Below are positions 1 through 39,042 of a DNA stretch of 40,193 nt, one piece after another (position 1 is the stretch's first letter; every line of letters starts with the position of its first letter). Source of the DNA: Physcia stellaris (lineage: Eukaryota; Ascomycota; Lecanoromycetes; Caliciales; Physciaceae); contig JABSSW010000092.1 of assembly GCA_018902385.1 (NCBI GenBank), positions 1 to 40,193 of the forward strand, written 5' to 3'. The notes beneath the pieces were generated by a model, which searched no databases, had not been told where the DNA came from, and saw nothing but the letters and a program-made list of their open reading frames with translations. The position numbers were made by a program, and so were the translations under genes.

Positions 1-1060
1 TTTTGTCGCTCGAAATTGTTTTACGATTGCTCGCTGGAACGCGACGTCTATAATCAACAAATTGATTTTTACGATTTACCGCGTATTTTTTGAAATGAAA
101 TTTTGACGTCGATGAAAAAAAAATGTCGAAAATCAAAATTACGACAAAATCAAAACGATTGAATGATCATCATTTGACGACGAACATTTATCAGAAAATA
201 TCGATAAATTCCTAATTTTACACGCCAAAAAATTTGTCGTCATCTGCAAAAATGTTTCGAAGGATTTCGAAACGACGAATCGCGTGTTGTTTTTATTTTC
301 GTTTTTTTGTTTTTTCGTCAACGTTCGTCTCGATCATTGCAAAACGCGATTGACGAAATTTTGCGCATCGATCATGACATTTTTCATGCAAATTGAATGC
401 ATTGCGAAATCGAAATGAACAACAATCAATTGAAACAATACGCAATCATATACGATCGAACGATTTCAAAGTTAAACAGAAAATTGATAAAAAGTCGAAA
501 ATCGAATTCGAAATTTTTGAATGACGCATAAACGTTTTTGTCACGCGACGATCGCGTCGAATTTCGATCAATTTTATCAAAAAAATCGTCTCGACGAGAA
601 AAAAAGTCTCGAAAACTGATTGAAAAATATAAATTGACAATGAAACATTCATGTATTGAACGTGAATCAAATTTTCAAATCTGATTTTTTTTGACATTTC
701 GAAACATTTACGTATACGACATTTTGACAAACGTCGCGAAATTCTGTTTCACGAATTCATTTGTGTCATCACATTTGTCGCAAACAAAATCGAAAAATCA
801 TTTTTTGCGAATGATCGTACATTCAATGATTGACGAAAATTTCTTTACAAAACACGAATTTCGAAACGATTGTGATTCGAACAAAACACAAGTTTGCAAA
901 AAAACGATAATCATGAACGAGTTTAATCGCAAAACAACGACGTTGATGTTTTGATCACGAACGTCAAATTCGACAATTTTAGTCAAAATATGCAAAACGA
1001 TTGTTGCGATTGCATTTTCGTCGATTTTTGATTTTCAATTTTCAACGTTTCGCAATGCTT
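1..1060. other. AT-rich mutated DNA, no recognisable gene
   Basis: Several open frames of 60-95 codons lie on both strands here, but they overlap one another and have the low-complexity Asn/Lys/Ile/Phe/Ser composition that this mutated DNA gives in any frame. C is followed almost only by A or G, as in most of the window. I see no repeat, promoter or RNA gene. Confidence 0.5.
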
Positions 1061-1076
1061 TGAACGCATTCATCGC

Positions 1077-1525
1077 ATGAATCAAATTTCGATTTGTCAT
1101 TTTTATATTTTAAATTTCGATCATTTTTATGATCAAATTGTTCAAACGAACGTCGCAAATAAAATGTTGATTATTTTCGAATCAATGAAAACAATCGAAA
1201 TCATCACGAATAAAATTGACGCATTCAAAATCTTGATTGAAAACGAAATTTCGAATTTCATTGACGATATGATCAAAACTCGACTCGTGCAAAAAAAAGC
1301 AAATTTTCTATATCAAAAACAATATAACATTCGAAATTTTCGCACGAAATGAAACAACGTTCGAAATTTGACGCAAAAAAATGAATACTTCGTCGAAATC
1401 GAATTTCGTCAATGTTTGAATTTGAAACAACTCTCAGTCGATCATCGCTTAAAACAATCGAAAAATGATTTCGTTGATGAAATTTTAAAAATCGATTTCG
1501 TTACGATGCAAATATGTTGTTTATA
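1077..1525 (+). pseudogene. Degenerate hypothetical protein with one internal TGA
   Basis: An ATG frame runs to a TGA at 1350-1352 and continues in the same frame, with no further stop, to a TAA at 1523-1525, about 149 codons in all. The product is charged, without Pro or Trp. A lone in-frame TGA is what CpY-directed mutation predicts from a former TGG (Trp) codon. The final TAA lies inside a palindrome (1515-1532). The region around residues 75-110 has a weak flavour of a retrotransposon Gag, but I do not recognise the family. The upstream boundary is uncertain, since the frame is open for some codons before the ATG. Confidence 0.35.
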
Positions 1526-1532
1526 AACAACA
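1515..1532. repeat. Perfect 18-bp palindrome
   Basis: TGTTGTTTATAAACAACA equals its own reverse complement. It is the fully mutated form of TGTTGTCTATAGACAACA at 11144 (CT to TT and AG to AA). It overlaps the stop codon of the upstream frame. Its role is unknown; a terminator hairpin, protein binding site or element end are possible. Confidence 0.75.
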
Positions 1533-1613
1533 TTTTTTCGTTTTTTTGTTGACGTTTTTATAAACAAACGTCAAAACGACATCGTTCAAAAGTTCAAAAT
1601 CGATGCGAAAATT

Positions 1614-2120
1614 TTGAAAAAAATGATCAAAATCGCGAAACGAACGCAACAAATCGAAAAGAATAAAAGCAATCGACGTTCGAAACGATTACAACAAATT
1701 CAATTTGTTTTTTTGATCGCGCGCTCGAATAACGACTTTGAAGTTTTTATTGACGAATTCTCATTCGCAATTTCATTTTTCGACAAGCACTCGAATGATT
1801 CAAATGACAATCTTTTTTCCGATGAAGTACAGTCGAAGCGACAAAAATCAAAGAAGTTTTTCTCTATAGTGCTCAATCTGAGAAAAAAGAGCAATCACTT
1901 CAGCAACGAACATCAAAAATCGTCGTCATTTTTTCAAGTCGCGTTTTCGTCGATCATCGCGTCACGTTCGTCGTTTTTTGTCGATCGTTTTCGACAACAC
2001 GATTTCAATTTCGAAGTTTCGAATATTTTGTTTTTGATCAGAAATCGACTTTTCAAGCAAATCAAAAAATTCATTTATTCAATTCGCAGCTCGACTCGAC
2101 TCGTTTCGAGCAAAAATTGA
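1614..2120 (+). CDS. Hypothetical basic, Ser/Phe/Lys-rich protein (168 aa)
   Basis: This is the longest ATG-free-of-stops frame in the first 6 kb. Residues 1-30 are strongly basic (Lys/Arg/Gln), the middle has a short acidic Asp/Asn/Ser stretch, and the rest is rich in Ser, Phe and Arg. I do not recognise a domain. Bases 1800-1910 keep more CT and AG than their surroundings, so part of it is less mutated. Palindromes sit 80 bp before it (1515) and directly after its TGA (2121), so the ORF may be the cargo of a small repeat-bounded element. It could equally be a remnant of a larger gene or a chance frame, because CpY mutation rarely makes stops. Confidence 0.3.
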   Translation: MKKMIKIAKRTQQIEKNKSNRRSKRLQQIQFVFLIARSNNDFEVFIDEFSFAISFFDKHSNDSNDNLFSDEVQSKRQKSKKFFSIVLNLRKKSNHFSNEHQKSSSFFQVAFSSIIASRSSFFVDRFRQHDFNFEVSNILFLIRNRLFKQIKKFIYSIRSSTRLVSSKN

Positions 2121-2160
2121 TGTTGTTTATAAACAACATCGATGTTGTTTATAGACAGCA
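2121..2160. repeat. Two adjacent TGTTGT-TTATA-ACAACA palindromes
   Basis: A perfect palindrome at 2121-2138 (TGTTGTTTATAAACAACA) is followed four bases later by an imperfect copy at 2143-2160, where one half still reads ATAGACAGCA. They begin at the base after the stop codon of the 1614-2120 frame. Confidence 0.75.
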
Positions 2161-3000
2161 TCGCATGATTTTCATCGTCGTGAACGTTGTTTCATCATTT
2201 CATTTAGTCGAAATTTTGATTTCTGTTTCGTTTTCGAAATTTTTTATTTTTTCTATTTTTAGCGCGAACTTCGAATCAATTTTTGTTGAGAACGATTCAA
2301 TGATGAATATCGAAAGTTGTTTTAATTTGAGATATTCACATCGCGTTAACGCACGAAATCGTGTATTTTTTTCATTTCGCGAATGAATAACGATCGACGA
2401 ATTTGATTTGTAAATAATCGAAAAACGTTTGTGAACGTTCATCAACTTTAAATCAAATTGATAAAATCGTTCAAATTCAAACAATTTTTCAATAGTTAAT
2501 ATTTTGAATTTGAATGCAACAAAATTCGAATTTTTTTTTAACATCGTATTCAGATCGCATATAAATAATATGTATATTTATATATATATTTGTTTTCGCG
2601 TCATCATTTACGTATTTTTAAATTTTCGTATAATTATCAGTCGACGTTAGTCGACTGACTCATTGACATTTTATGATCATCTCAGTCGAAAACGATATCA
2701 TTTTTGTGAACGAGTCATCGCAATTTTCACAAATCAATTATTCGTTCGAAAAATTTCGAATCATCTCGAACATTTCTGTAAAAAACACAGAAAAAAAAAC
2801 ATATTTTCAAGCAAACAATGACAATGAATTCATTTTCACATCAAACATTTATGCAAAAAATTTCGCTCAAATTCAAATTCTAAATGCGTTCGAAATTCAA
2901 TCATCGTACATGTTAACAAAGTTCAATACATTTGATTTCACGAATAATTTTTTATTTTTTCAATCTGTTTGAACAAATTTTCGAACATCGCGAATTCGAA
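2161..3000. other. Mutated DNA with short open frames only
   Basis: A 99-codon plus frame at 2673-2972 and a 114-codon minus frame at 2200-2544 exist, but neither shows a recognisable motif and both have the composition forced by the mutation bias. A short TA-rich stretch lies at 2560-2600. Nothing else is seen. Confidence 0.4.
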
Positions 3001-3302
3001 TGAAAAATTTAATCGATGTATTTGCGTTCGAATCATCGAAAACAAAACGAAACAAACGCGACAAAAATGTTCAAAATTTAAAACGTATCATGAATCAACG
3101 AAAAATTTCAATTTCGAATGAATCAACACAGAATGAAAACAACACATTCAAACAATATGATGTCGCGACAATTGAATTGTTGACAATGATTCGTATCACG
3201 CAAAAACACGTCAAAATCGAATTAAGCATTGATCGTTTTTTGATAAATTATCAATTCGATTTTTTTGAATTCAAAAAAAAATTTTTCAATGTTAAAAAAT
3301 GA
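3001..3302 (+). pseudogene. Degenerate repeated ORF, copy 1 (100 aa)
   Basis: The ATG frame encodes a basic product containing a SSKTKRNKRDKNVQNLK block. The same block recurs as SSQTKRDKRDRNVRKLK in the frame at 4209-4529, and the DNA at about 3027-3167 and 4303-4440 can be aligned base for base. Differences between the copies are mainly A/G after A and T/C before T, so the shared segment is a mutated dispersed repeat rather than an independent gene. The family is not recognised. Confidence 0.4.
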
Positions 3303-3362
3303 TTTAAAATCTTTTCAAATTCATTCACATTTGTTACGTTACTCATTCTCATCATCGAGAGA

Positions 3363-3821
3363 TTGATTTTATGTTTTTTTGATTCGAACGCAAATTTCAT
3401 CGTTCAATTAAAATTTTCAAGCGAACGAAGCGTTTTCACATTCGAATTTTACGAACAAATCATTTTTTATCGTTTCAAAAACTTCGAGACGACGAAAACA
3501 CAAAACAGCGTTGTCATTGACATTTATGAAAACAAGAATTTTCAATTTCGAATCAAAAAAACTCTGATTGACGCATTCGATTTTCATTTCGTTAAACGTT
3601 ATTGAAATGCGCGCATTTCAATCATTATCGTCGATTCGATGAACAAGAAATATCAAAAATTGTCGCAACATATTGTTGCAAATCTTTGCGTAATTTTTGT
3701 TGCAAATCAGAATTTTGTCGACATTTTCACAAAAATCAATATTAAAATTTTCATTTTTTTTTCGAAAAAATTTCATCGAGAAACTCGTCATCGTTCAACA
3801 AATTATTCGAATTTTTTTTGA
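3363..3821 (+). pseudogene. Possible tail of a Copia-type polyprotein (weak)
   Basis: Two open pieces (3363-3605 and 3639-3821) lie in line. The second contains the string NFVDIFTKI followed some residues later by a basic stretch. This resembles the end of the Copia RNase H region, where an (A/T)DIFTK(P/A)L motif is typical. No other Copia landmark (YVDD reverse transcriptase box, DE(D) integrase) is visible in the preceding 3 kb, so this is a suggestion only. Chance similarity in a low-complexity translation is quite possible. Confidence 0.2.
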
Positions 3822-3824
3822 AAT

Positions 3825-4850
3825 TGACTGAAATACAAAACATGAATTTTGAATTTTCGTCGATCAAACACGATCATGATTGTCGCGTCTGAACGAAATC
3901 AAAAAAAAAATTGATCAACGAAAAAATTCTGATGAAAAATATCAGTAACATTTGTTGTCGTCGAACGAATTTTTGAAAAAAATAAAACGCTCGAATTAAA
4001 CAAAATTTGTAAATGACAATTCGAAAATATCGTCGAAATTTTCATTGTACGTCAAATGCATTATTTAGTTCGAAACATTGTCATTCGAATCGACAACGTT
4101 GATTATCATAACTCGAATTCGAATGAAAAATGTTGTAAAATCGACAAATGCAATGATCATCAATTAGTCAACACATAACATATTTGATTTTCGATCGTAA
4201 TTAGCAATTTGATCACTTTTTTCATTCAATTCGTTTTTATCATAATATTCATTTTCGTTGTTGTTGCATTCATCAGAATTCGTCAATGTATAAATATAAA
4301 TTTCGAATCATCACAGACGAAACGAGACAAACGCGACAGAAATGTTCGAAAATTAAAATGTATCATGAATCAACGCAAAGTTTCAATTTCGATTGAATTA
4401 ACACAGAAAAAAACAGCACATTCAAATAATATAATGATTGTATGTCAATTAACGAAATTTTCAATTGCTCGTTCAAGAAACGACTTGATCGACAAAATTG
4501 CACTAAACAGATGTTTTTCACGACAGTAATTTTCTGATGCGTTTGAATCGAGCGTTGTGATCATTTTACGAATGTTTTTGAAATACGAAATCAATTGTTT
4601 CAATGTCATTCGTTGATTGTCTTTCAGTTTCTGAGCAATGAAGTGAGTTTCAATTTCTATCGTTCAGAACACATTAGTTTGAACGAATTCTGACTGCACA
4701 TTATTGATTTGCAATGATTAACATTTTGATGACATTTTTTTTTTCAAATCATTTCGCAATCTTATTTCACTTGCGATCGAAATGATAATCTGTTTTGTAA
4801 CTGTTGATTTTGACAATTTCACAAATCTGATGACGAGATATCAATGAGCC
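3825..4850. other. Degenerate DNA carrying repeat copy 2
   Basis: The only supported element is the second copy of the 3027-3167 repeat at about 4303-4440. It lies in a 106-codon frame (4209-4529) whose first 25 residues are hydrophobic (Phe/Ile/Val). From about 4530 the sequence regains some CT and AG, so it is less mutated just before the 23-bp array. Confidence 0.4.
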
Positions 4851-4854
4851 AGAA

Positions 4855-5150
4855 AGTGAATGCAGCTTTGATCAGAAAATGAATGCAGCTTTGATCAGAG
4901 AGTGAATGCAATTTTGATCAAAAAGTGAATGCAACTTTGATCAAAAAATGAATGCAATTTTGATCAGAGAATGAATGCAATTTTGATCAAAAATGAATGC
5001 AATTTTGATCAAAAAGTGAATGCAATTTGATTGAAAAAATGAATGCAATTTTGATCAGAAAGTGAATGCAACTTTGATCAAAAAATGAATGCAACTTTGA
5101 TCAGAAAATGAATGCAACTTTGATCATAAAATGAATGCAATTTGAATGAT
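4855..5150 (+). repeat. 23-bp tandem array, 13 copies
   Basis: The core GAATGCAACTTTGATCA recurs at 4858, 4881, 4904, 4926, 4950, 4973, 4995, 5018, 5041, 5064, 5087, 5110 and 5133, a period of 22-24 bp. Each unit carries the palindrome TGATCA. The array ends about 20 bases before a TATA box and 95 bases before an ATG. One or two copies of the same unit stand before or near the related ORF at 8700, which suggests the unit belongs to the promoter of this small gene family. Confidence 0.9.
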
Positions 5151-5167
5151 TCAACGTCATGCATCTC

Positions 5168-5175
5168 TATATAAA
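5168..5175 (+). promoter_or_regulatory. TATA box, copy 1
   Basis: TATATAAA lies 67 bases before the ATG at 5242, followed by a T-rich, formerly CT-rich, tract. The same arrangement stands before the copy at 8700, where the tract is still CT-rich. A TATA box plus pyrimidine tract is a common fungal core promoter layout. Confidence 0.55.
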
Positions 5176-5241
5176 TTTTCTTTTTTCGATTTGTTTCTGC
5201 TTTTTTTATTTACATATTCGTATTTCAAGAATGTTCGCAAA

Positions 5242-5568
5242 ATGATCACAACGCTCGATTTTAACGCATTAGAAAATTACTGTCGTGAAAAACATCTTTT
5301 CAAAGAGAAAATTATCGTACACAAAACATCATCAACATCAGTTAATACATCGTATAGCAATTACATCAATCGCATTACACAGAACATCATCAACATCAAT
5401 CGATACATCGTATATCAACATCAATCGCATTACACAAAACATCATCAACATCAATCAATACATCGTATAGCAACATCAATCGCATTACACAGAACATCAT
5501 CAGCATCAATTAATACATCGTATAGCAACATCAATCGCATTACACAAAACATCATCAACATTCGTTAA
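5242..5568 (+). CDS. MITTLDFNALENYC family ORF, copy 1 (109 aa)
   Basis: The frame from ATG 5242 encodes MITTLDFNALENYCR and then a charged stretch before entering a tandem repeat. The open frame extends upstream to 5146, but this ATG is preferred because it, its TATA box and the intervening leader are conserved in the copies at 8700 and 9217. From about residue 28 the protein is translated from a 55-bp tandem repeat. As 55 is not a multiple of three, successive units are read in different frames, giving His/Gln, Thr/Ser and Asn/Ile-rich segments in turn. No known domain is recognised. Expression is plausible from the promoter; function is unknown. Confidence 0.45.
   Translation: MITTLDFNALENYCREKHLFKEKIIVHKTSSTSVNTSYSNYINRITQNIININRYIVYQHQSHYTKHHQHQSIHRIATSIALHRTSSASINTSYSNINRITQNIINIR
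5326..5567 (+). repeat. 55-bp tandem repeat, about 4.4 copies
   Basis: Units begin with ACATCATCAACATCA at 5326, 5384, 5439, 5494 and 5549 (spacings 58, 55, 55, 55). Each contains TACATCGTATA and CAATCGCATTACACA. One diverged copy stands at about 9299-9355. C occurs only before A, G or in a few spared places, so the array resists the mutation process seen around it. Confidence 0.9.
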
Positions 5569-6005
5569 TTCATTGAATTTGTTATCGATTTTGTTTGCAA
5601 TTCATTCAAAGTTTGTGCACACGATTTTTCGATGATTTGAATATCGTTCGATTTTTGTTGTTTTCGCATGAAAAACGAATCAATACGCAATGACTCAACA
5701 AAATCAACTGTAAACGAAAAAAATCTTGACAAAATTTAAAAAAAACATGTATGCGAACGAAAATGCACTCATGAAAATTTTTGAAAATGAAAAAATGTGT
5801 TCAAATGACATGTCAATTCGAAATTTTTTGAAAATCACGAATAATGTAAAATTCGACATTCGTTTATGATTTTGTTTCGACATATTGATTTATTTTAATC
5901 AATGAATTTGTCAAATCAATCAAGAATTCATTCGAGTTTTCGAACGTGACAATGACACAACGAACACAATAATGAACGAGATTTCGTCAATTTCGATAAT
6001 CATAA
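5569..6005. other. No supported gene
   Basis: Mutated AT-rich sequence between the repeat ORF and the BTB relic. It may hold the degenerate 5' part of the BTB gene, since the BTB frame appears to start upstream of 6006, but I cannot follow the frame securely. Confidence 0.4.
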
Positions 6006-6338
6006 ATTACGAAATACAACATAAAGTTTCACGAAAAACATGAAAAATTTGTACAAATCATGATCGAATATTTTTATACGATTAAATATCTCAATTCAGA
6101 TTTGAACAACAACATCATGATAAAACAAAGAAATCGTCGTGATCACACAAATGATTTTAAATGCTCATTTAATTTCAACGATTGTTGTTTGAAACTTTTC
6201 GATATTGCAATTGCTATGCATGTTTTGAATGACAAATATGATATTTCGAATCTGAAAAAGCATTTTTGCAATTGAATTTTTGAATTTCGAAAAAAACTCA
6301 ATGTGCAAAAAACAATGTTCAATCGAGAAATTTTTTAA
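6006..6338 (+). pseudogene. BTB/POZ domain protein relic
   Basis: The frame reads EKFVQIMIEYFYTIKY, then, after about 40 residues, LFDIAIAMHVLNDKYDISNL and KKH. This matches the second half of a fungal BTB/POZ domain: the 'F..MIEYFYTGDY' strand and helix, then the 'HV.V..LADKYDIPSLK' helix that precedes the domain end. BTB domains mediate dimerisation and often link substrates to Cullin-3 ligases. The Gly-Asp of the usual YTGDY is lost and Pro of DIP is Ser, as the mutation bias predicts. A single TGA at 6273-6275 interrupts the frame, which then stays open to a TAA at 6336. The N-terminal half of the domain upstream is not readable. Family assignment is fairly good; the gene is not functional as written. 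Confidence 0.6.
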
Positions 6339-6537
6339 ATTTTTGTGTGAAAAAATTATTCAATTTTTTATCGTTAAAATCGCTGTTCGTGAATGACAAT
6401 CGTTGTCGATTCAATCGAATGAACTTTGATCGTTGTTGCGACGACGACTCGACAACGATCATGACATTAATTTCGAATTGCAACATGATGTCGTCGAAAA
6501 TATTGTTCATAAAATCGTCGTCATTTCGTTTTCATTT
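6339..6537. other. Short gap with opposing shadow frames
   Basis: Frames on both strands overlap completely and none has a recognisable motif. The sequence is rich in TCG and CGA. Nothing is supported. Confidence 0.4.
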
Positions 6538-7008
6538 TCAATTCTCGCTTGTCGTCTTCGAGAAATTCGAATCAATAACGACGACTTTTCGATGTTTCGA
6601 TAAAAATTTGATATTGTTCATTGTGTCGATGATAAATTTCATCACGAAAACGTTTAATCGAGTTTGATCAACGACAATGTTATCAATTTTGATTTTTTCG
6701 TTTTTTGTCGTTCGTTTTTTTTTCAAATTACGTTTTTGTCGAATTTTTTTGTTTTTGATTCGATTCGTTCGATTTTGAAATTCAACGTTGCGATTCAATT
6801 GTCGCAATTGTCGTTCGATCAAACGTGAAATTTCATCGATTTTTTGATACGCGCGACGAGCTTGACGCAAAATTTGAAAACGAACGTTTAATGTGAACAT
6901 TATGATGTTTTTATAATCAACACAAATCAATATGATTTGATAAATAATTGAAACGAAAAATTTACAAATAAATTGAAATGAATAAAAAGAAAATTCAAAA
7001 TCAAACAT
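6538..7008 (-). pseudogene. Coiled-coil, basic hypothetical protein (156 aa)
   Basis: The minus frame has a hydrophobic N-terminus (residues 1-40). Next comes a helical, charged stretch with RQARRAYQKIDEISRLIERQ, followed by a strongly basic Asn/Arg/Lys run (KKIRQKRNLKKKRTTKN). An amphipathic helix followed by a KQKRKR-type basic tract is seen near the C-terminus of fungal pogo/Fot1 transposases, and that is one possible origin. No DDE residues can be placed. It contains no Trp, Pro or Gly, consistent with mutation, and I treat the family suggestion as weak. Confidence 0.3.
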
Positions 7009-7340
7009 GCATGATAAAAAAATGATTGAAATTCGTGTTTAAATTAATTATTTTTGATATCACTATTGCAACAATTGCATATTTCATTCTATGTTTTAAA
7101 CGCGCAAAAATCAAAAAAATATTTGAACTTGACGTTCGACGATTGTGTGTCTCGAATAAATCATTTTTGTATTATAATTTACAAGCATATTCAGAAACAA
7201 ATCTCGATTGAAATCTCTCTTTATCAGCAAAAGTTCATATGATAATTATCGCGAATTCAAAATTTCACGTTGACATTTGACATTTGAATTTTGACACGAT
7301 TCTAAACAATGAAAAGCACAAATCGATGTATAATCATTGA
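7009..7340. other. Mutated DNA, no supported gene
   Basis: Two overlapping plus frames of about 60 codons (7026-7211 and 7054-7242) share the same bases and show no motif. Confidence 0.4.
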
Positions 7341-7536
7341 TGTTGTCTACAAACAACATGATATTTCAGTGTATATTGAAAAACATAAATTGCAAACAAA
7401 ATCGCATTTCGTTATATAGTTATCGATGTTGACTATAGACAACATGAAATTTCAAAATATAACAAAAAATCATAATTTGCAAATAAAATCACATTTCATT
7501 TTATAGTCATTTCATCGATGTTGTTTATAGACAACA
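7341..7536. repeat. Three palindromes in about 90-bp tandem units
   Basis: Palindromes at 7341-7358 (TGTTGTCTACAAACAACA), 7427-7444 (TGTTGACTATAGACAACA) and 7519-7536 (TGTTGTTTATAGACAACA) are spaced 86 and 92 bp apart. The spacers resemble each other (AAATTTCA, then CATAATTTGCAAATAAAATC, then TTTATAGTCAT) and the same palindrome-spacer-palindrome unit recurs at 11058-11161. The copies differ from the perfect form mostly by C-to-T before T and G-to-A after A. Confidence 0.85.
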
Positions 7537-7614
7537 TCGATTGTCAACATACAACAATGATTGAATTCTGATTTTGATTCAATTAAACAATAATGTCGCG
7601 AAAATCAGCTCGAC

Positions 7615-7902: not shown

Positions 7903-8564
7903 TTAAACGTATTACGTTCAAAGATTATAATAATTTCGTAACATTGATTTTTGAACATAAGTTTCGTATTCGTGAAAATCACTCGTCAGATTGATAAAAT
8001 GTTGCAAATCATTGAAATCGTTTCAATTCAAATATTACATCAACGAACATGATCAAATTCGCTCGATAGCTCGTTCTGATCAAGAATTCAACTATGAATG
8101 TAGTTCTGAATGATTAGAGAACTGAAACTCATGTGAGCGTTCGATGAAAAACGAAACTTGTCAAAATGAAAAATTTTGAATTTTGCTATAGAGATTCGAC
8201 GAAACAATTCAAGAAAATTTCAAACGAACTAGATTCGTATTCAGTTCGTATCGTAAAATTGACTAGTTGATACGAATTTTCGCGAGATGAACTGAAGAGC
8301 AGACATTGAAAGCGATGAAACAACGACGAGACAATCTGAAGATGTTGCGAGAAATCTGAAGAATGCGAAAAATCGATTGAATGAGAAAGATGAGTGCAAA
8401 AAAAACAGAATGCGAAATAAAAACGATAAAGAGACGAGAAGTTGAATGAGTGAAATGTTGCAAGATAAATAAATGAATGATCACGCGAATTTCGAATGTG
8501 CATTTGAGTTTCTTTCTTGATGATGCAATCAATGAACAATAATGAAAAAATCGAAAAATCGATT

Positions 8565-8606
8565 TTAGTGAATGCAGCTTTGACCAGAGAGTGAATGCAA
8601 CTTGAA
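8565..8606 (+). repeat. Two copies of the 23-bp promoter unit
   Basis: GTGAATGCAGCTTTGACCAGA and GTGAATGCAACTTGAATGATT match the units of the 4855-5150 array and end just before the TATA box of the second gene copy. Two further copies stand at about 8846-8898, after the ORF. Confidence 0.8.
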
Positions 8607-8631
8607 TGATTCACTCATCGTCATGCATCTC

Positions 8632-8639
8632 TATATAAA
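8632..8639 (+). promoter_or_regulatory. TATA box, copy 2, with CT-rich leader
   Basis: TATATAAA is followed by an intact pyrimidine tract (TCTTCTTCTCTCGATCTGCT) up to the ATG at 8700. The spacing and sequence match the copy at 5168, whose tract has become T-rich. This copy is the least mutated of the three. Confidence 0.6.
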
Positions 8640-8699
8640 TCTTCTTCTCTCGATCTGCTTCTTTTATCTACATATTCGTATCTCAAGAGTATTCGCAAA

Positions 8700-8888
8700 A
8701 TGATCACAACGCTCGATTTTAACGCATTAGAAAATTACTGTCGTGCAGAACATTTTTCAAAAGAAAATTATCGACTCGATTTTAACGCATTAAAAATTTC
8801 TGTCGTGAAGAACATCTCTTCAAAAAAAAGATTATCGTACACAGAACACTTTGATCAGAAAGTGAATGCAACTTTGATCAAAGAGTGA
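8700..8888 (+). CDS. MITTLDFNALENYC family ORF, copy 2 (62 aa)
   Basis: The frame starts MITTLDFNALENYCRAEHFS. Bases 8712-8772 and 8775-8835 are a diverged internal tandem duplication (CTCGATTTTAACGCATTA stands at the start of each), so LDFNAL appears twice. The second half is read in a shifted frame. The frame ends within a copy of the 23-bp unit. The promoter is well preserved, so this is the copy most likely to be transcribed. No domain is recognised. Confidence 0.45.
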   Translation: MITTLDFNALENYCRAEHFSKENYRLDFNALKISVVKNISSKKRLSYTEHFDQKVNATLIKE

Positions 8889-9109
8889 ATGCAATTTGAA
8901 TGATTCACTATTTCATCGAAACAAAATTCTATTTCAACGAATTAATCAATTCAATCAAATTTCGTCTTTGCGACGAAATAGTCACTGTTTTATTCAAATA
9001 CGATTTTGACGTTTTATCACGCTTTTTCGATTTCAGCATTTCAGAAATGTTCATTTTACGCGAAAAGCACAAATTCGTTTTAGAAAATTTTGTGATATGA
9101 AAACACGAT

Positions 9110-16779: not shown

Positions 16780-19700
16780 GAAAATCGATGAAAATATCGA
16801 TTGTTTTCAAAAATTATATTTAAAAATTGTTATATGTTCATTTACGAAAAAGATGTTTCGTTTATGAGCATACACAAAAAAACTGTAAGTTGGTATCGAA
16901 AAATGCAAGATTTTTCATATATAACATTACGTCATAAGTTGAAAATTCATAAAGATATCAAATATTTCATTTTTTCAATATTAAAAATTGTATCGTGCTT
17001 TAATACGAAAAATACGTTTCGTTTATGAACATACACGAAAAAAAGTTACATTTGTATCAAAAAAATGAAGATTTTTCATATATAACATTACGTCATATGT
17101 TGAAAATTCATAAAGATATCGAATATTTCAATTTTTCGAAATTGAAAATTGTATCGTGCTCATAAACGAGAAATATGTTTCGTTTATGAACATATACAAA
17201 GAAATCATAAATCTGTATCAGAAAATAGAAAATTTTTCATATATAACATTACGTCATATGTTGAAAATTTATAAAGATATTGAACATTTCAGTTTTTTAA
17301 TATTGAAAATTGTATCGTGTTTCAATACGAAAAATACGTTTCGTTCATAAATATACTCGAAACAAAAATATATTCGTATCAAAAAATCGAAGATTTTTCA
17401 TATATAACATTACGTCATATGTTGAAAATTCATAAAGATATCGAATATTTCAATTTTTCGAAATTGAAAATTGTATCGTATTCATAAACGAAAAAAATGT
17501 TTCGTTTATGAATATACACAAAAACATTGTAAATTAACATCAAAAAATCGAATGTTTCACATTACGTTATATGTTAAAAGTTCATAAAAATATCGAATGT
17601 TTTGAATTTTTAAAATTAAAAATTGTATCGTGTTTGTGAACGAGAAATATGTTTCGTTTATAAACATACACAAAAAAACTATGAATTTGTATCAAAAAAT
17701 CGAAACTTTTTCATACATAACATTTCGTCATAAATTGAAAATTTACAAAAAATATTAAATTTTTCAATTTTCGATATCGAAAATTGTATCATGTTCATAA
17801 ATAAAAAAAACATTTCGTTTATAAATATACACAAAATTTTTAAAAATTTTGTAATTCGATTGTACATTTTTCATATATAACATTACGTCATAAATTGAAA
17901 ATCGACAAAAATATTAAATTTTTCAATTTTCAAAATTGACAATTGTAACATGTTTATAAATGAAAAAAATATCTCGTTTATGAACATACACAAAACAATC
18001 AAAAATTTTTTCAATAAAATCGCAAATTTTTCATGTATAACGTTACGTCATAAGTTGAAAATCGACAAAAATATTCAATTTTCAATTTTGAATCGAAAAT
18101 TCTAACATGCTCATAAATGAGAAAAATATCTCGTTTATGAACATACACAAAAATGTTATAAATTTTTACATTAAAATCGCATATTTTTCATGTATAACAT
18201 TACGTCATAAATGAAAAATCGATAAAGATATTAAATTTTTCATTTTTCGAAATCGAAAACTGTATCATGTTCATAAATGAGAAAAATATCTCGTTTATGA
18301 GCATACACAAAAATTTATAAATTTTTATGATAAAATTGCATATTTTTATGTATAACATTACGTCATAAATGAAAAATCGATAAAGATATTAAATTTTTCA
18401 ATTTTCGAAATCGAAAATTGTAACATGTTCATAAATAAAAAAAATATCTCGTTTATGAGCATACACAAAATATTTATAAATTTTATGATAAAATTGCATA
18501 TTTTCATGTATAACATTACGTCATAAATGAAGATTCGACAAAGATATCAAATTTTTCAATTTTTCAAATAAAAAATTCTAACATGTTCATAAATGAGAAA
18601 AATATCTCGTTTATGAGCATACACAAAAGATTTATAAATTTTTATGATAAAATTGCATATTTTTCATGTATAACATTACGTCATAAATGAAAAATCGATA
18701 AAAATATTAAATTTTTCAATTTTCGAAATCGAAAATTTTAACATGCTCATAAATGAAAAAAATATTTCGTTTATGAACATAAACAAAAATGTTATAAATT
18801 TTTACATTAAAATCGTATATTTTTCATGTATAACATTACGTCATAAATGAACAATCGACAAAGATATTAAATTTTTCAATTTTCGAAATCGAGAAAATTT
18901 TAACATCTTCATAAATGAGAAAAATATCTCGTTTATGAGCATAAAAAAAAATGTTATAAAATTTTATATTAAAATTGCATATTTTTCATGTATTACATTA
19001 CGTCATAAATGAAGAATCGACAAAGATATTAAAATTTTCAATTTTCAAAATCGAGAAAATTCTAACATCTTCATAAATGAGAAAAATATCTCGTTTATGA
19101 GCATAAACAAAAATGTTATAAATTTTATATTAAAATCGCATATTTTTCATGTATAACATTACGTCATAAATGAAAAAACGATGAAAATGTTAAATTTTTC
19201 AATTTTCAAAATCGAGAAAATTCTAACATCTTCATAAATGAGAAAAATATTTCGTTTATGAGCATAAACAAAAAACATATAAATATTTATATTAAAATCG
19301 CATATTTTTCATGTATTACATTACGTCATAAATGAAGAATCGAGAAAAATATTATTTTTTTCAATTTTCGAAATCGAAAATTGTAACATGTTCATAAATG
19401 AAAAAAAATATGTCGTTTATGAACATGCACAAAGATATTATATAATTTTATTATAAAATTGCATTTTTTTATGTATAACATTACGTTATAAATGAAAAAT
19501 CGATAAAAATATTAAATTTTTCAATTTTCGAAATCGAAAATTGTTTCATGTTCATAAATGAAAAAAATATTTCGTTTATGAGCATAAACATAAATGTTAT
19601 AAATTTTTATATTAAAATCGTATATTTTTCATGTATTACATTACGTCATAAATGAACAATCGACAAAGATATTAAATTTTTCATTTTTCGAAATCGAGAA

Positions 19701-20030
19701 AATTTTAACATCTTTTCATAAATGAGAAAAATATCTCGTTTATGAGCATACACAAAATATTTATAAATTTTTATGATAAAATTGCATATTTTTCATGTAT
19801 AACATTATTTCATAAAAGAAAATTCGACAAAGATATCAAATTTTTCAATTTTTCAAATAGAAAATTCTAACATGTTCATAAATGAGAAAAATATCTCGTT
19901 TATGAGCATACACAAAATATTTATAAATTTTTATGATAAAATTGCATATTTTTCATGTATAACATTACGTCATAAATGAAAAATCGACAAAAATATTAAA
20001 TTTTTCAATTTTCGAAATATAAATTTTCGA
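16780..20030 (+). repeat. About 160-bp satellite, about 20 units
   Basis: The landmark ACATTACGTCAT or a close variant recurs at 16924, 17085, 17246, 17407, 17559, 17720, 17880, 18040, 18197, 18355, 18513, 18673, 18833, 18995, 19156, 19318, 19478, 19638, 19802 and 19962. Spacing is 157-164 bp except one of 152. Each unit also has TCATAAATGAGAAAAATAT followed by CTCGTTTATGAGCAT, an inverted pair of about 12-base arms. Short frames inside the array are artefacts. Units from 18.1 kb on are the more alike, suggesting more recent spread or exchange on that side. Confidence 0.95.
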
Positions 20031-30599: not shown

Positions 30600-31800
30600 A
30601 TATTTCACGAATAAATAAATATTCATGACGAATAAATGATTTTTAGAAATATTTTTTCGAAACGAAAATATAATTTAATTTCGTTGATAGTGAATATAAT
30701 TTACGTCAACTTTAACGAATAAATTTATAATTTAATTCACAAACAAATTTATTGATGCACGATTAAATTTAATATTGATGCACGACTAAATTTAATAATG
30801 TTAAAAATAAAAATTAATGATACACGAATAAAAAAATTCATGCACGAATAAATTTAATTAATAACAATAAATTGAATTATGCACAATAAACAAATATTCA
30901 TGCACGAATAAATAAATATTTATGCACGAATATAATTTAATTGATGCACGAATAAAATTTAATTGATGCACGAATAAAATTAAATTGATGCACAAATAAA
31001 ATTTAAATATTCATGCACGAATAAATTTAATTCATGCACGAATAAATTTACTATTTTTAACAATACAAATTTATTTTTACACGAATTAATTTAATTCATG
31101 CACAAATATAATTAAATATTCATGCACGAATAAAAAATTTAATAATAAAAATACATATTAATATTTATATTTACACGAATCAATTTAATTCATGCACGAA
31201 TAAATAAATATTCGTGCATGAATAAATAAATATTCGTGCATGAATAAATAAATATTCGTGCATGAATAAATAAATATTCGTGCATGAATAAATAAATATT
31301 CGTGCATGAATAAATAAATATTCGTGCATAAATAAATAAATATTCATGCACGAATAAACAAATATTCGTTAATAATACAAATTAATTTTTGCACGAATAA
31401 ATAAATATTCATGCACGAATAAATTAAATATTTTTATGAATAAATAAAATTAATTTTTAACAAATAAATAATTCATGCACGAATAAATTTAAAAATTTAA
31501 CAATAAATTAAATATTCGTGCGAATCAAATATTCGTGCATGAATAAATAAATATTCGTGCATGAATAAATAAATATTCGTGCATGAATAAATAAATATTT
31601 ATAACAATACAAATTAATTTTTACACGAATAAATTTAATAATTTTAACAATACAAATTAACTTTTAATAAATAAATATTCATGCACGAATAAATAAATAT
31701 TCGTGCATGAATAAATAAATATTCGTGCATGAATAAATAAATATTCGTGCATGAATAAATAAATATTCATGCACGAATAAATTTAATAAATTTAATAATA
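30600..31800. repeat. Array of ATTCATGCACGAAT motifs in 20-30 bp steps
   Basis: ATTCATGCACGAAT and its reverse complement ATTCGTGCATGAAT recur dozens of times, joined by AAATAAAT or AAATTTAAT spacers. Regular 22-bp runs lie at about 31196-31340, 31520-31590 and 31680-31770. The motif occurs in both orientations, mixed. Confidence 0.9.
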
Positions 31801-31859
31801 CAAATTAATATTTTTTGCAATATATAAACAACGAAATTTTCTTTGTAATTTTTTTTCAA

Positions 31860-32080
31860 TCATTCACATTTTTCACATTTTCACACATTTACACACGAAA
31901 CAAACACACAATACACATATTCAACAAATATACAAAATATACACACGAAACACATATACGACATACATATTAAACGATATACACAAAACACAAACACGAA
32001 ACACACGCACGAAATATACACAAACAATATACACACAACACATATACACGTACAACATTTACACGTATTACATTCGCGAA
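31860..32080 (+). repeat. CA-rich simple sequence
   Basis: ACACACGAAACACA, ATACACACGAAACACATATA and similar strings dominate, with very little G outside CG. CA dinucleotides are the context spared by the mutation bias in this window. Confidence 0.6.
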
Positions 32081-32149
32081 ATACAATATAAAAAAAAATC
32101 TTTCAACGTTAAGTTTATTTCAATTTGTTAATTTTTTTTTTTGTTTGTT

Positions 32150-32282
32150 TTTTTCAATTGTTTTTATTTTGCTTTATTGTTTTATTGTTTATTGTTTTAT
32201 TGTTTTATTGTTTATTGTTTATTGTTTTATTGTTTTATTGTTTTATTGTTTTTTTGTTTTTTGCTTTATTGTTTACGTTGTT
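32150..32282 (+). repeat. (TTTATTG)n-type T-rich microsatellite
   Basis: TTTATTGTTTTATTG and variants repeat about 15 times without A-rich interruption, ending 40 bases before the first ATG of the helicase relic. Confidence 0.8.
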
Positions 32283-32636
32283 TATTTTTGATTTTTTCAT
32301 CAAAAAAAAACAATTTTGAAAATGTCTTTTTACGATATTAACAATTCTAACGTTATTGACAACGTTGAACAAATTAACGATTTTCTTTATTACAATAAAG
32401 AATTCAAAATCGTTATTTGTTACAAAATGTCGCGTTGTTATAAACAACGAAAAAACGACAAATTCGATTACTCATTTCAATTTTAACGTTCAACATATAA
32501 ATTTAACTTTCAACGAAAAAAAACAGATTTTCGAAACTTTAAAAATTACGCGACTTGTTTCAACGAAAGATATTCAAATTCCGACGAATTTTCAACATTT
32601 TTTTCCGTTTTATACACATATAACGACGCTTTTTCT

Positions 32637-32702
32637 TGTTTACATTGTTCGTATGTTGTACGAGACAGCAAAACAATGCGTATGCATTGTAACAAAGAAC
32701 AT
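32637..32702 (+). other. C2H2 zinc finger of the TLH-like relic
   Basis: The frame reads CLHCSYVVRDSKTMRMHC and continues NKEH, a complete C-x2-C-x12-H-x4-H pattern with all four ligands present (Cys codons 32637 and 32646, His codons 32685 and 32700). The preceding segment (YTHITTLF) is in a different frame. The change falls at a run of five T (32630-32634), and one extra T would join them. DUF3505 proteins carry this finger in the same place. Confidence 0.75.
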
Positions 32703-34195
32703 AAACTTAAAAATACGACAAAAACAGAATCGTTTTACGATTCGAATATTTACGCACAAATTTTTACAACAAATCGATATCGAAAATATTTTGCTGTTAA
32801 TTACAAAAACAATTTAACAACAACGAACAACAATCAAACAATCATTGATAACAATTTCACAAACGACGAAACAAATCAAATCAACGAATACAATCAACAA
32901 TTGAATGATATCAAAATGCAATCAATTCAACAAAACGAAACGACACAATTCAAAGAATACAATTTGTTTTTACAACAGTCGTATTTTCACGAATATCTTG
33001 AAAACAAAAATATCGACGATTTGATACAATCTGTCAATACAAAATTCTTGAAACAACATCGAACAATTACGTTATTTACACGAATTAACGCTTGAACTTG
33101 CAATTGAATCGAACGAATTGATTCAAAAATTCGATGTCAAATTAAAACAATTGTTACATACAGATAAAGCAATCGATATTGCTTTACATAACAAAAAAAT
33201 GAATTCGTTTCAAGAATTGCAAAATACGTCGTCAATTCAAGATTATTATTCGACGTTTGCAGATTTAATTTGTTATATTTATTATTCAATCGAAATCGAA
33301 AAATCAAATTATTCGCAACTCGTTATTACAACGACAATTTCGAAAATTATTCGATTAATTACTCAACTTTTGTCTCGAATCAAGAAATTAACGACGAAAA
33401 ACAACAAACGGAATTTAAACAAACGATTAAAACGTGTATAATTCGATTAACATTCGAATTGTTACGTCAAAAAACAGAACAAAAACGTCTCGACAAACAC
33501 GCAACGTTTGACAGTATTGTTGTCACGTTTTGTGTTTGCAAATCAATAAGTTCTGTTGATAAAACATTTATCAAAACGTCAATGATCGAAAAATTATGCA
33601 GCAAACTTCTTTACATGTTTCGATATTTTTTTATGTTGTACGTCAATTATCGAAACAACAAAGCAAACGATAACGACGAAACGATTTCAATTTGTCAACG
33701 TTTTTCACGAAAATTTACTCGAACACGTATCAAACGATTCACGAAATTGTTTCGAAACAATACAAAATTATCGAGCTTTAACGCGAAAAATCTCGATGAA
33801 CGAAACGGGAAATTCTAAAATTACAGACGTTTCTAACGATATTCTTCGATACGATAACGTTGAAATTTCAATCAATAAATTACGAATTATTTTTCAATCA
33901 ATTAATTGACGATCTTGAACGACAATTATTCGAAAATTTGTTACAAATCGACAAAAACGAACTCGAAACGTCAATTAATCTTAACGAAATTTATGACGAT
34001 TTACACGAACAAAAAGATCAATTTTATTTCGTTGAACACGTCACGAAAAATCAAGATTTTTCGCATTTGAAACAATTTCTTATTCGACGTTTTCAAAACA
34101 GACGACTGAATTTCATCGTTTTTTCACGGCAAAAATACAACAATTAATAACAATCAAATTTCGATATATTTACAACATCGAAAAGACTTTTAAAG

Positions 34196-34840
34196 TTGTT
34201 ATTAATTGTTATTTATTTAACAACAGGAGCGTTTGCTCGTGACGAAGAAATTATCAAAACAAAATTCAAAAATTCGTTACATACGGGATTACGCGAAGTT
34301 TTTTACGACGAAACATCGAAATTAATCATGTTTAATTTACGATATCACAAAAATCAATCGAAACAACGAAAAAACAGCAAAAATATTCGATTTTGTAACG
34401 AACGCGTTTCAAAAATTATCGTTTATTATTTATTGTTCGTGCAATCTTTTTACGAATTTTTACAAATTCGTTATTTAGATTCGAAAACGTTGTCGTCGAT
34501 TCATTTATTCGAAAATAACGACAAAACATTCACATCTGAATCAATGTCTGATTTTATTAAATTAAAATCGTTACATTATATTCAAACGCCGTTACGAATC
34601 GCGATGTTACGTCAAGTTATGACGTATATTATTCGTGAACGAATTTTGATTTCAAATTACAATGACAACGATTCGTCGAATTCTGACAACGACGAATCAA
34701 TACAATTTATACAAGCGAATCATTCTCGTAAAACGAATCAATTTCATTACGGACGCGATCAACATACGTTGATAAATACATCGAAAAATGCACAACTCGA
34801 AGCGTTGAAATTTTGCAAAAATATCAAGAATTTTTCAATT
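34196..34840 (+). other. Tyrosine-recombinase-like segment of the relic
   Basis: The open frame has three blocks arranged like the catalytic boxes of tyrosine recombinases. They are LTTGAFARDEEIIKTKFKNS (34217 on; box-I-like 'TG.R..E...L', Arg codon 34238), TPLRIAMLRQVM (Arg codon 34610), and ANHSRKTNQFHYGR (His codon 34721, Tyr codon 34748), comparable to the LGHSS..TT..Y.R box. The Gly normally before His is Asn here, as GGT to AAT mutation would give. The segment joins directly to the helicase. Fold assignment is my inference from motif order; family members elsewhere read GHSS.T....Y.R at this point. Confidence 0.5.
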
Positions 34841-36005
34841 TAAACGGAAATTCGATTACGAAACGTATTCGTTCGAATTCAAACGACGACGACGACAACG
34901 TTACAACAACAAACAAAAAATTAAAAACGTCAAATGAAATATCTTTCAATACGTCGTTATTAACACGAGATGTTAACGAAAACGTTCTTGATTTAAATTT
35001 ATCGTTACAACGATTTTTCAAAAATTCAAAAGCAACGTTTAAATCAAACGCACAATTCGAATCAATAAAAGCAATCGAAAATAACGTTTCGAATGTGTTT
35101 TTTCGAGCAGGAATCGAAACAGGAAAAAGTTTGTTATTTATGTTGTCGTCATTTATTTCGAAAGAAACAATTAACTTTGTAACGTTGTCACTTGTATCGT
35201 TAAAATTCGACATGAATCAACGATTGAAAACGCTCAATATTCACGCAGAATTATTCGAAAACAACGCACAACATTCGTCAAATTTGCAATTAATATTTTA
35301 CGAAAGTTTACTCGAAAATTCAACGTTTTACGATTATTTATCGTTACAAATTCGACAAAATAAACATATTCGACTTTTTTTCGACGAAGCACATTTGATT
35401 GTTTTGCATAAACAATTTCGATATATCATGAAACATCTGTCACAAATCAATTTGTATAAAATTCAATTGATATTTTTGTCAGCAAGTTTTACAACAGAAA
35501 TTTTACAAGAAATAATGACGCAATTTTCGATTCAAAAATATGAAATATTTCACACAACAACGACACGAAATAACATCAAATATATCGTTCGAGAACACAA
35601 ACAAAATATCGATATATTTGAAGATTTGAAAAATTGTATTGACAAGAACTTTATCATACGTTAAAAAACGACGAAAAATATTGATTTATACAAAAAAAAC
35701 AACAATGTGAAGATTTCGCACGTAAATACAAAACATTGTATTATCACGCGAAAATGACACAAGACGACAAAGAATCGACGCAAAAATCGTTTTTTCAAGA
35801 CAATAATCAACGTATTTTAATTGCTACTTCAGCATTTAACGAAGGAATCGATAATTCGTCAATAAAATACGTTTTACACGTTTCAAAACACGAATCAATG
35901 ATTACTGTCGATCAACAAATCGGACGAGCCGGTCGTAATAACGAGAATCTGCAACATCGATTTTTTCGTTTCTTACAATTTTCTATCACGAAAAATAGAA
36001 AATAA
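34813..36005 (+). other. RecQ-type SF2 helicase core of the relic
   Basis: Motif I reads AGIETGKSLLFML (35107-35145; GxGTGKS expected, with Thr to Ile and Gly to Glu changes of the CpY type). Motif II is DEAH (35383-35394) and motif III is LSASFTTEI, where LTAT.PPE is expected. After a frame change at a run of eight A (35692-35699) come ILIATSAFNEGID and motif VI QQIGRAGR (35913-35936), which is fully preserved, including a CC dinucleotide. RecQ helicases unwind DNA 3' to 5' using ATP. The C-terminal RecQ-like piece with Cys (TEECSHNQNLCYLCETRY) is readable near 36130-36190 in another frame. Confidence 0.85.
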
Positions 36006-36437
36006 AATCGATCGAAAAATAACGAAAGAAAACGACGTTTTTCGAATCGATCAAAATATGTTACATGCATATTTATTAGAAAAAAATGTTTACGACGTGT
36101 TCTCGACAATTATTTCGACAATAAAAAAACTGAAGAGTGTTCACACAATCAAAATCTATGTTATTTATGTGAAACACGATACAACGAATTACAACAACAA
36201 AAAACAAACGAAATTTCGAAAATTTCGTCGAATTTTCACGAAGAATCGAATTTTTTACGATATTACGAAAAATTTTCGAATTTTTGTTTCAATTGTTTTC
36301 GACATCAAAAATTCGACGATATGCATTTACACGAAACGTCATATTGTAAACATGAAAAACTTCACGATTTTCAAGTTTTAGCAAAGAATATCAAAGACGA
36401 TATAAAAAAAAACAAATTAATAGCTGAAGAATTTTCT

Positions 36438-36497
36438 TGTTATTACTGTTTATTGTCGCAAAAATTGTGTAACAATACACGAAAAAATAACAAATGT
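36438..36497 (+). other. Cys-rich module (C-x2-C-x6-C-x8-C)
   Basis: The frame 36321-36914 contains CYYCLLSQKLC and then KCQYL, with Cys codons at 36438, 36447, 36468 and 36495. The pattern matches the 'CYYC.LPQ..C...CQY' module found downstream of the helicase in fungal TLH-like proteins and probably binds zinc. The Pro is Ser here. Confidence 0.6.
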
Positions 36498-36829
36498 CAA
36501 TATTTAACGACGTCTTTGTACGTTTTGTTAACTATTGCGTTTTGTCATAACGAAAAATTCTTGATGAATTCGCATTTAACGAATTTTTCGAAATCGAATT
36601 CGAATTCGACTTCTTTAACGTTTTCGAAATTTCTTTGTCAAAAATCTTCAATATTCGATACAGATTGCATACACGCTATGCATATTATTTACGAACTTAT
36701 TCAAAACTTCGACAGATTGATTTCAGAATTAATGAAAATTCACAATTCTTACAAAGAACGACGAAAACAATTGAAAAATTCAAACAACGAATCAAAACAA
36801 CAATCGAACGTTCAATTGACGATAATTCA

Positions 36830-36975
36830 AATAACAAATCGATTAACGATTCAAACGACGAATCAAATGACGATTCAAACGACGAATCAAATAACGATTC
36901 AAACGACGAATTAAATAACGATTCAAACGACGAATCAAACGACGAATCAAACAACGAATTAATCGACGAATCGAA
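36830..36975 (+). repeat. 24-bp repeat encoding NDESNDDS
   Basis: AACGATTCAAACGACGAATC recurs about six times. In the plus frame 36635-37363 it encodes an Asn/Asp/Ser/Glu-rich acidic tract (SNDESNDDSNDESN). A related acidic tract (ENSNDDENSNDDEISNDE) lies at 37800-37910. Confidence 0.85.
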
Positions 36976-37968
36976 CGATTTATCGCGTCAAAAATCAAAC
37001 GATTCTTTGCATTTACAATTCGAATCAACGTTAAATATAAGTCAACGTGACAATAATCAAATTTCGTCGAATATTATACAGAAATCGAGTCACGATTCGA
37101 TTTCGAATTCAAGTATCGATTCAAAATTTGAAACAACATCTTTTCACAAACAAGACAAAATTGTGAAAGAAAAATACAAAGAATATGTCAAACAAGCACG
37201 CAAAAACGTCAAAAACAAAACAATGATTCAAAACATGATAATGTCAATTGAAAATTTCGTAAACAGTTCAGAATTTTACGATTTAATCGACGAAAAACGT
37301 ACGATTATTATCACGATAAAAAATCGACTCAAAACGTTACGAAAAAACAATCGAAATTTATAATCGATGACAACAATTTATACGATATATCATCGTCTTC
37401 AGACGACGAAATTGTCGACGAAATTGTTCGAAAAAAAAACATTGAACATGTACGATTCGTTTGTTCAAAACGAATACAACAAATATGTTCGAAAATGTCG
37501 AAAACAAAAACAGCAACAATGAATTTCATTTTATCAATTGACGATTTCGTTCAAAACGACGAATTTCATAACAATATTAACGACGAAAAATCGAAACGTT
37601 GTCGCGAAATATATTCAACACAAAATATTCGACAACAAAAACGTAATTTACGAAATCAACAACAAACGAAAAAATATTTCAAGAACATCAAAACAAAAAT
37701 ACACGCGAAATTGATATGACAAACGTTGAAAAAAATGAAATATTCAACAACGAATTTATACAATTGTCAAACAGTGCGAATTCAATTGACAAATCAAACG
37801 AAAATTCAAAACGAAAATTCAAACGACGACGAAAATTCAAACGACGACGAAATTTCGAACGACGAAAATTCTGACGACGACGAAAATTCTGAAAATGAAA
37901 TTAAATAACGTCGAAAAATCGATTGTTAAAATCAAACGATATCGATGTTGAATTTTCTGATAATTTGA

Positions 37969-38634
37969 CGACGAACGAAAATTGATAAATTTCAACAATT
38001 ATATCAATCTCGAAATCGTTTCGAACTTCTTGAAAACAACGATACAAACGACGACGAATTCGATATAGACGACGATTTATTACAACACATGAAAAATCAA
38101 ATCGAAAACGAAATAATCAACGAACAATTTTCGAAAATTATCAAAAAAATTCAACGATTGATCACACGTTGTATATTTTGTAAAATATACAAATCGTCAA
38201 ATTATTTTCACATTCGTCGTCAAAATGCAAGAAATTTAAAAAATTAGAATTTCAAATTGCGTACGGATTGTTAAAACAATCAGTCGACTTTTAACGATTC
38301 AAAATATTCGAATCGAAAATTCGAAACGATTTGTTCTGAATGTCTTATGCCGTTCAAAATTTGTTCTATTTTTCGTCGAAAATCGAAATATTCAAAAATG
38401 AAACGTTGTGTTTTATGTCACATATTTGCATATTTACACGTTATTCACGCGTACAAAAACGATTTTGAAAGAAGAAAACGTTAAAAATTTGACGTTGACA
38501 ATAACGAATCAACGTGTTTTGCAAATCATTTATCAGACAAAATTTTATTTCGAAAATTAGAAGCGGAAGTCAAGCGTTTAAATACATTGTCAATTTTTAA
38601 TTTTTTGTATTTACAATTTATATCAACGAAATAG
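37969..38634 (+). other. C-terminal Cys-rich region of the relic
   Basis: A frame without early ATG (37969-38247) encodes an acidic helical stretch and CIFCKIYKSSNYFHIRR (Cys codons 38170 and 38179). A one-base frame change continues it as SKCKKFKKLEFQIAYGLLKQ. Next come ICSECLMPFKIC (Cys at 38332, 38341, 38362) and RCVLCH (Cys at 38407, 38416) followed by His-rich HVIHAY, then a last open stretch to TAG 38632. The Cys/His spacing suggests two zinc-binding modules like those at the end of TLH-type proteins. Confidence 0.55.
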
Positions 38635-39042
38635 CTTTACGAATAAATTTTTAAAAGTATCAGTTTTCAAGCTAAAATTCTGCAAAAAATACATGACAAT
38701 CACAAATCAATGAAGAATTTTTAAAAAGAAACAAAAATTAATTGTGTCAAGAATTGACGAAATATGTTGAATATTTCGCGTAAACTATTTACGAGGAGAC
38801 TATCTAGTAATTACGTTAAGAACTTGCAATTTCTCACGACATTTCTATAGAAATTAGTCCAAAATCACGCCGAAATGACACATTGATTTATTTCTGAATT
38901 GCTCGAGACAATGTTGCATTTTAGTGAAGATTTTCTAATAACGTTAATAATAAAATAAAGATTAATACAAGAATCCAATTTACTTCTGTCTTCACTGCTT
39001 GACTCTTGACTATTCTAGCCGACAGTCTAGTCCCAGAATGAC
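38635..39042. other. Transition to normal-composition DNA, no gene
   Basis: CT, CC and AG become common from about 38.65 kb; in 39001-39060 I count 14 C, of which 9 are followed by T or C. The stretch is downstream of both the helicase relic and the minus-strand gene, so it is the shared 3' side of two convergent genes. No terminator or RNA gene is recognised. Confidence 0.45.

Follow-up and report, generated by a model that had tools for sequence, protein, structure and literature searches.

The 40,193 bp contig C92 of Physcia stellaris (the whole contig was analysed and is here called the window) raises the question of why, over most of its length, cytosine is followed almost only by A or G. 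In an earlier note this had been ascribed to C>T mutation aimed at CpT and CpC (together CpY), sparing CpA and CpG, in the manner of repeat-induced point mutation (RIP) but with another target. The counts given there were exact on recounting: positions 36781-36840 contain 13 C, eight in CA and five in CG, with none in CT or CC, and nine of the 14 C at 39001-39060 are CpY (six CT and three CC). The GC content of the whole window is 25%, and expectations for its dinucleotides were taken from 300 base shuffles. CC occurred 38 times (shuffle mean 700, range 641-771), GG 43 times (mean 574), CT 582 times (mean 1819, range 1731-1904) and AG 650 times (mean 1954), while CA (2683, mean 2159) and CG (2010, mean 635) were in excess. 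The depletion was symmetric between the strands and present in tandem arrays and coding relics alike, by which codon bias was ruled out as its cause. Counts per kb together with the shuffles placed a CpY-depleted, repeat-rich block with C>T and G>A mutation at 1..38640, without strand. In 400-bp steps the CpY share was 0.04-0.21 across 36001-38800 and 0.28-0.44 towards the right end; the stretch 39001-40193, part of which had been called unmutated, is therefore partly mutated, the share being about 0.5 in genes and random stretches.

The assembly (eukaryotic, 43.97 Mb in 147 contigs) provided two controls. The 24 chaperonin and methyltransferase gene loci, which partly overlap, were unbiased, with GC 47-52% (about 49%) and CC at 0.78-1.02 of expectation. 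Twenty stretches of 1.2 kb were drawn at random from 18 of the 147 contigs (14.97 of 43.97 Mb, mostly large contigs) and landed on ten of them; 19 showed a CpY share of 0.41-0.55 and the remaining one was mutated (0.18). As the contigs drawn were mostly large, this sample is likely to understate the mutated share of the genome. Equal CpY depletion in conserved genes, which the note had named as grounds for giving up its claim, was thus not seen in the 24 gene loci, and the random sample agrees; as in RIP, single-copy genes are spared. The observation is real and extends beyond the window.

The direction and context of the changes were read from retroelements. A reverse-transcriptase (RVT) search scored 150 of 527 candidates and 12 loci were fetched, of which four were unmutated (GC 0.49-0.53) and eight were mutated to a varying degree (GC 0.24-0.37), with CC and GG below expectation in all eight. 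The unmutated locus L038 was used as reference and compared over 2.1-3.5 kb, both strands being counted, with five mutated relatives (L044-L048) that are 92-95% alike among themselves. C>T and G>A made up 91-96% of the differences in the five pairs, i.e. transitions of C:G to T:A in either strand, as in RIP, and because of this share L038 is regarded as near the unmutated state. C had changed to T at 1969 of 2020 CpC (97.5%), 1810 of 2111 CpT (85.7%), 177 of 2021 CpA (8.8%) and 91 of 1876 CpG sites (4.9%), and CpC is a target at least as good as CpT. A C preceding another C was changed in every 5' context (0.97-0.98), and the second C of CCA was spared (48/596 changed). The preference for CpA that marks classical RIP was not found; classical CpA RIP and CpG-type mutation were both ruled out by these context counts. 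Repeat alignments had been named beforehand as the test on which the claim should stand or fall, and with C>T strongly enriched at CpC and CpT it stands. In the pair L043/L049 (66% identical, both mutated and therefore unpolarisable), more change was again seen at CC and CT.

The same comparison bears on two explanations that do without a methyltransferase. Editing of repeats by a deaminase acting on DNA cytosines, whether APOBEC/AID-like or of another kind, would in principle be compatible with both-strand C>T changes under a neighbour rule. APOBEC enzymes, however, read the 5' neighbour, and the strong 5' preference expected of them was not found, the C>T rates lying between 0.47 and 0.58 whatever base came before; a search of the genome for APOBEC_N (PF08210), made without a positive control, also gave no match. 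We consider a deaminase very improbable. Ultraviolet-type dipyrimidine damage, or a replication bias in late-replicating heterochromatin, would fit the fact that CpC and CpT are dipyrimidines. TpC is a dipyrimidine as well, yet it was spared unless a pyrimidine came next (606 of 619 TCC and 396 of 444 TCT changed, compared with 47 of 533 TCA and 23 of 532 TCG), on which ground dipyrimidine damage was rejected. The sharp-bordered unmutated insertions described below speak against a purely regional bias, and the explanation as a whole retains hardly any probability.

Ribosomal DNA (rDNA) gave a separate reference. Locus L037 (C41:45899-46052 and flanks) is a mutated rDNA relic with large-subunit, 5.8S and small-subunit matches, and was the sole 5.8S match reported when 39 of 2644 candidates were scored. 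No intact rDNA unit was found among these 39, and such a unit may be absent from the assembly; an Rfam search for the small subunit was unproductive. L037 was read against conserved Rfam positions in five hand-chosen alignment blocks. Where both consensus letters were upper case, 17 of 18 CC, 10 of 22 CT, 0 of 18 CA and 0 of 17 CG were changed; with lower-case positions included the figures were 27/36, 33/50, 4/45 and 6/50. A third comparison was made with a RecQ-like helicase gene present in 14 copies, 12 of which were aligned (the copies on C57 and C62 were left out), the base found in most copies being treated as ancestral. C>T changes in a minority of copies were found at CC 12/18, CT 67/131, CA 47/408 and CG 52/566, and were per site about five times commoner at CpY (79/149) than before a purine (99/974). 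Retroelements, rDNA relic and helicase copies thus all support a C>T process aimed at CpT and CpC.

Stop codons in the RVT_1 matches, tallied by hand in 149 rows of the 150 matches (ten rows were stop-free), comprised 249 TGA, 33 TAA and 3 TAG. If mutation is strictly limited to CpY, TGG can give TGA, while CAA, CAG and CGA cannot give stops, and the predominance of TGA excludes a CpA rule as the main cause. What was observed directly is the type of mutation, its 3' context rule, its concentration in repeats and the methyltransferase genes; together these describe a process like RIP whose 3' preference is nearly inverted. Repeats in this genome are probably hypermutated by a RIP-type defence that targets CpY and largely spares CpA and CpG, and for which a RID-like agent would be likelier than DIM-2. 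Duplicated DNA would acquire C:G to T:A transitions in both strands, CpY would be converted, presumably before meiosis, by a RID-like enzyme whose target-recognition region had changed, and fresh insertions that had not yet been through a sexual cycle would remain unmutated. The window would then be a subtelomere whose broken helicase gene had undergone CpY mutation. With less assurance, but still favoured, is the wider proposal that a defence mutator exchanged a CpA rule for a CpY rule, with CpC as its best site, probably by way of a diverged RID-like methyltransferase; it would hit repeats near-completely, cause nonsense mutations mainly by TGG>TGA, leave the TpA-based composite RIP index blind and allow Trp-free, Gly- and Pro-poor subtelomeric helicases to persist.

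A search for RID/DIM-2-type methyltransferases, as the note had suggested, revealed one DIM-2-like and two RID-like genes. The DIM-2-like protein matches 9bap, which we take to be Neurospora DIM-2, with an E value of 2e-181. The two further PF00145 genes, L009 (C6:791557) and L011 (C5:499307), share 40% identity over 174 aa and have the motif VI triads EET and EQT, respectively; two in-frame TGA codons in the L009 match sit in GT...AG-bordered stretches resembling short introns. Both triads are given for the Masc1/RID group, EET occurring in B. cinerea and P. destructans (PMC6709928), so that the genome contains methyltransferases of the RID/Masc1 type by PF00145 and motif VI. A RID-like enzyme with changed specificity would be the likeliest agent, because CpA and CpT signatures have been tied to RID-type genes (PMC4352252). 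In the main rival explanation, which we regard as unlikely, DIM-2 would drive the process, and non-CG 5-methylcytosine at CpY in heterochromatin would deaminate over time. The presence of the DIM-2-like gene is in line with this, as is the CpT preference of Neurospora DIM-2, which methylates mainly non-CG sites (review PMC13297926). The same review, however, lists all CpN contexts for DIM-2, and the near-total loss of CpC with CpA barely touched is sharper than that; the presence of two RID-like genes also counts against DIM-2, without being decisive.

A RID-like agent of this kind has to be set against the known systems. Neurospora crassa RIP, with RID and DIM-2, likewise shows both-strand C>T/G>A changes in repeats, spared genes and RID-like and DIM-2-like genes, but its ranking is CpA>CpT>CpG>CpC (PMC5496416), whereas in this genome CpA and CpG fall far behind CpC and CpT. 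CpT changes are frequent in N. crassa copies of Tad1 (PMC2621366) and rDNA (PMC5555474) and common elsewhere too (PMC2621366, PMC7882544). In the ascomycete Trichoderma reesei, too, RIP follows a context rule unlike that of Neurospora, but there CpA and CpG come first and CpC last (PMC5496416). Signatures in ten genomes comprised CpA, CpT and CpG, and a RID motif was suggested to lie behind CpT in Botrytis, Sclerotinia and Magnaporthe (PMC4352252). Repeats of these three fungi have CpT as main signature along with RID/Masc1-type genes, the B. cinerea RID sharing the EET triad of L009; they differ in that CpT is accompanied by CpA and that CpC is no signature (PMC4352252). In Stagonospora nodorum, CpC and GpG are among the depleted dinucleotides, as here, but CpA is depleted as well, TpA is raised and alignments show CpA>TpA to predominate (PMC2621366). 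CpC>TpT double changes occur alongside CpA in Monilinia (PMC8959702). The CpG/TpCpG mutation of Microbotryum and the RIP-like mutation of Rhizoctonia resemble the present case as C>T in an unusual context in fungi, but were read by their authors as CpG-biased, CpG being the best-spared context here; in a Rhizoctonia table CpC single-nucleotide polymorphisms were nevertheless the densest class by raw spacing, at 214 bp compared with 370 for CpG (PMC4014442). CpC is thus already known as a minor or raw class in other fungi. A literature search, with most subscription journals outside its scope, found no report of CpC and CpT being targeted with CpA spared.

Several points weigh against a CpY-directed, RID-like defence. 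RIP most commonly targets CpA, unlike the process seen here, and CpT was changed only about half the time in the rDNA relic. The unmutated retroelements L039 (C5:1166521) and L040 (C12:60312), both inserted in mutated DNA, are 95% identical and their differences show no context bias; that they are 5% apart and yet both unmutated is a divergence without mutation that is not fully explained. The assignment of L009 and L011 to RID is drawn from motif VI and their mutual resemblance, and purified RID had no activity in vitro (PMC13297926). TGA stops by themselves would also be compatible with CpG mutation of CGA, an argument taken from Rhizoctonia (PMC4014442); this ambiguity between TGG and CGA as origin is decided by the C>T context counts.

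With regard to timing, unmutated retroelements were found inside strongly mutated DNA, with abrupt borders in L074, L075 and L076. The border lies near 1955 in L076 (end repeat 98.9% over 88 bp), at 3397 in L074 (end repeat 116/116; the element of L040) and near 3594 in L075, where there is an abrupt change to mutated DNA. The edges of the fetched loci truncate these end repeats, which are presumably long terminal repeats. The unmutated retroelements may be young insertions, as expected if mutation has to await some event, for instance a sexual cycle. The assembly contains a MAT alpha-box gene, and together with the DIM-2-like and the two RID-like genes this would suggest a filamentous ascomycete.

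Standard RIP indices hardly registered the mutation. The window had a TpA/ApT of 0.55 and a substrate index of 1.29, and 3 of 159 windows passed the RIPCAL default thresholds. TpA/ApT was not raised in the eight mutated RVT loci (0.38-0.44) compared with the 24 gene loci (0.62-0.76). The composite index was below zero throughout, at -1.17 to -0.84 in the mutated RVT loci, -0.72 to -0.44 in the gene loci and, slightly higher than these, -0.36 to -0.28 in the 12 helicase copies. An index built on CpY, (CC+GG+CT+AG)/(TC+GA+TT+AA), gave 0.02-0.26, 0.79-0.98 and 0.07-0.08 for the three groups, respectively, and so separates mutated RVT loci and helicase copies from gene loci in this genome. A genome of this kind would escape surveys built on TpA/ApT and CpA indices. 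The way in which RIP selects a cytosine is unsettled, and a natural variant with nearly inverted 3' preference offers a direct route to that question.

The window copy of the helicase gene is a broken, RecQ-like one at 32904..37396 on the + strand, recognised by PDB matches to BLM/RecQ1 and by its copies in the same genome. By phmmer the relic matched BLM and RecQ1 over residues 120-304 with an E value of about 1e-4, which indicates a RecQ-family domain; Pfam searches with nine open reading frame pieces of the window gave nothing above the cut-off and no helicase match. Eleven sister copies have 93.5-96.9% DNA identity. Many of the 14 copies are on small contigs or close to the end of a contig (C53, C67, C10, C4, C142, C144, C91 and C92), while the copy at C41:118 kb and two on C12 lie 70-118 kb inside contigs. 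Some GG and CC sites still kept by several copies fall in what we take to be helicase motif I (Walker A; 35107..35130, + strand) and motif VI (QxxGRxGR; 35913..35936, + strand), both located in the alignment of the 12 copies: CC at 35114 is kept in nine of 12 and GG at 35116 in six of 12, the window copy having TC and GA, and GG at 35922 is kept in all 12.

Three copies (L004, L005 and L007) have open frames of 1170-1284 codons, beginning at the locus edge, in CpY-depleted DNA; these lack Trp altogether and contain 0.2-0.3% Pro and 0.5-0.9% Gly. Their amino-acid changes were, in each of the six directed pairs, below the count in every one of 500 trinucleotide-context-matched reshuffles, and their differences also avoided stops, although the test leans towards selection, as the three copies were picked for openness and only well-aligned windows were counted. 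The ratio dN/dS was 0.17-1.09 over 15 pairs (L003/L002 being misaligned), values that include the mutation bias. With three copies keeping long frames and few amino-acid changes, it was not borne out that every helicase copy is a dead relic. Genes without Trp codons are the predicted survivors under CpY mutation. On some sequencing platforms, C in methylated motifs is systematically miscalled as T, and an artefact in which methylated CpY was read as T might draw on the frameshifts of many helicase copies, which could be homopolymer errors. The long open frames, the GG and CC kept at motif codons and the avoidance of amino-acid changes and stops, to which a base-caller would be blind, speak against this, and the artefact was rejected as very improbable. 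The family resembles the fungal telomere-linked RecQ helicases (TLH) in being RecQ-like, in having several copies, many near contig ends, and in lying beside a satellite; it differs in that the copies stand in CpY-depleted DNA and that the three long frames are free of Trp, with less than 1% each of Gly and Pro. The window may be a subtelomere carrying a broken gene of this telomere-linked type.

An own-genome DNA search located the partly mutated DNA that lies beyond the helicase gene (38640..40193, no strand) at seven other places with 87-92% identity, in six of the seven followed by satellite. A satellite beyond helicase copies (C12:64.3-65.7 kb) has a step of about 161 bp, close to the 160-161 bp unit of a CpY-depleted tandem array at 16823..20018 of the window, which contains about 20 such units (no strand; Tandem Repeats Finder and counts per kb). 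The same program located a 24/12-bp repeat within the helicase relic (36825..36978, + strand), overlapping the end of 36781-36840, and arrays of 23 bp x 13 at 4850-5145 and 55 bp x 4.4 at 5318-5561. Partial copies of the latter two arrays were observed near 8550-8900 and 9270.

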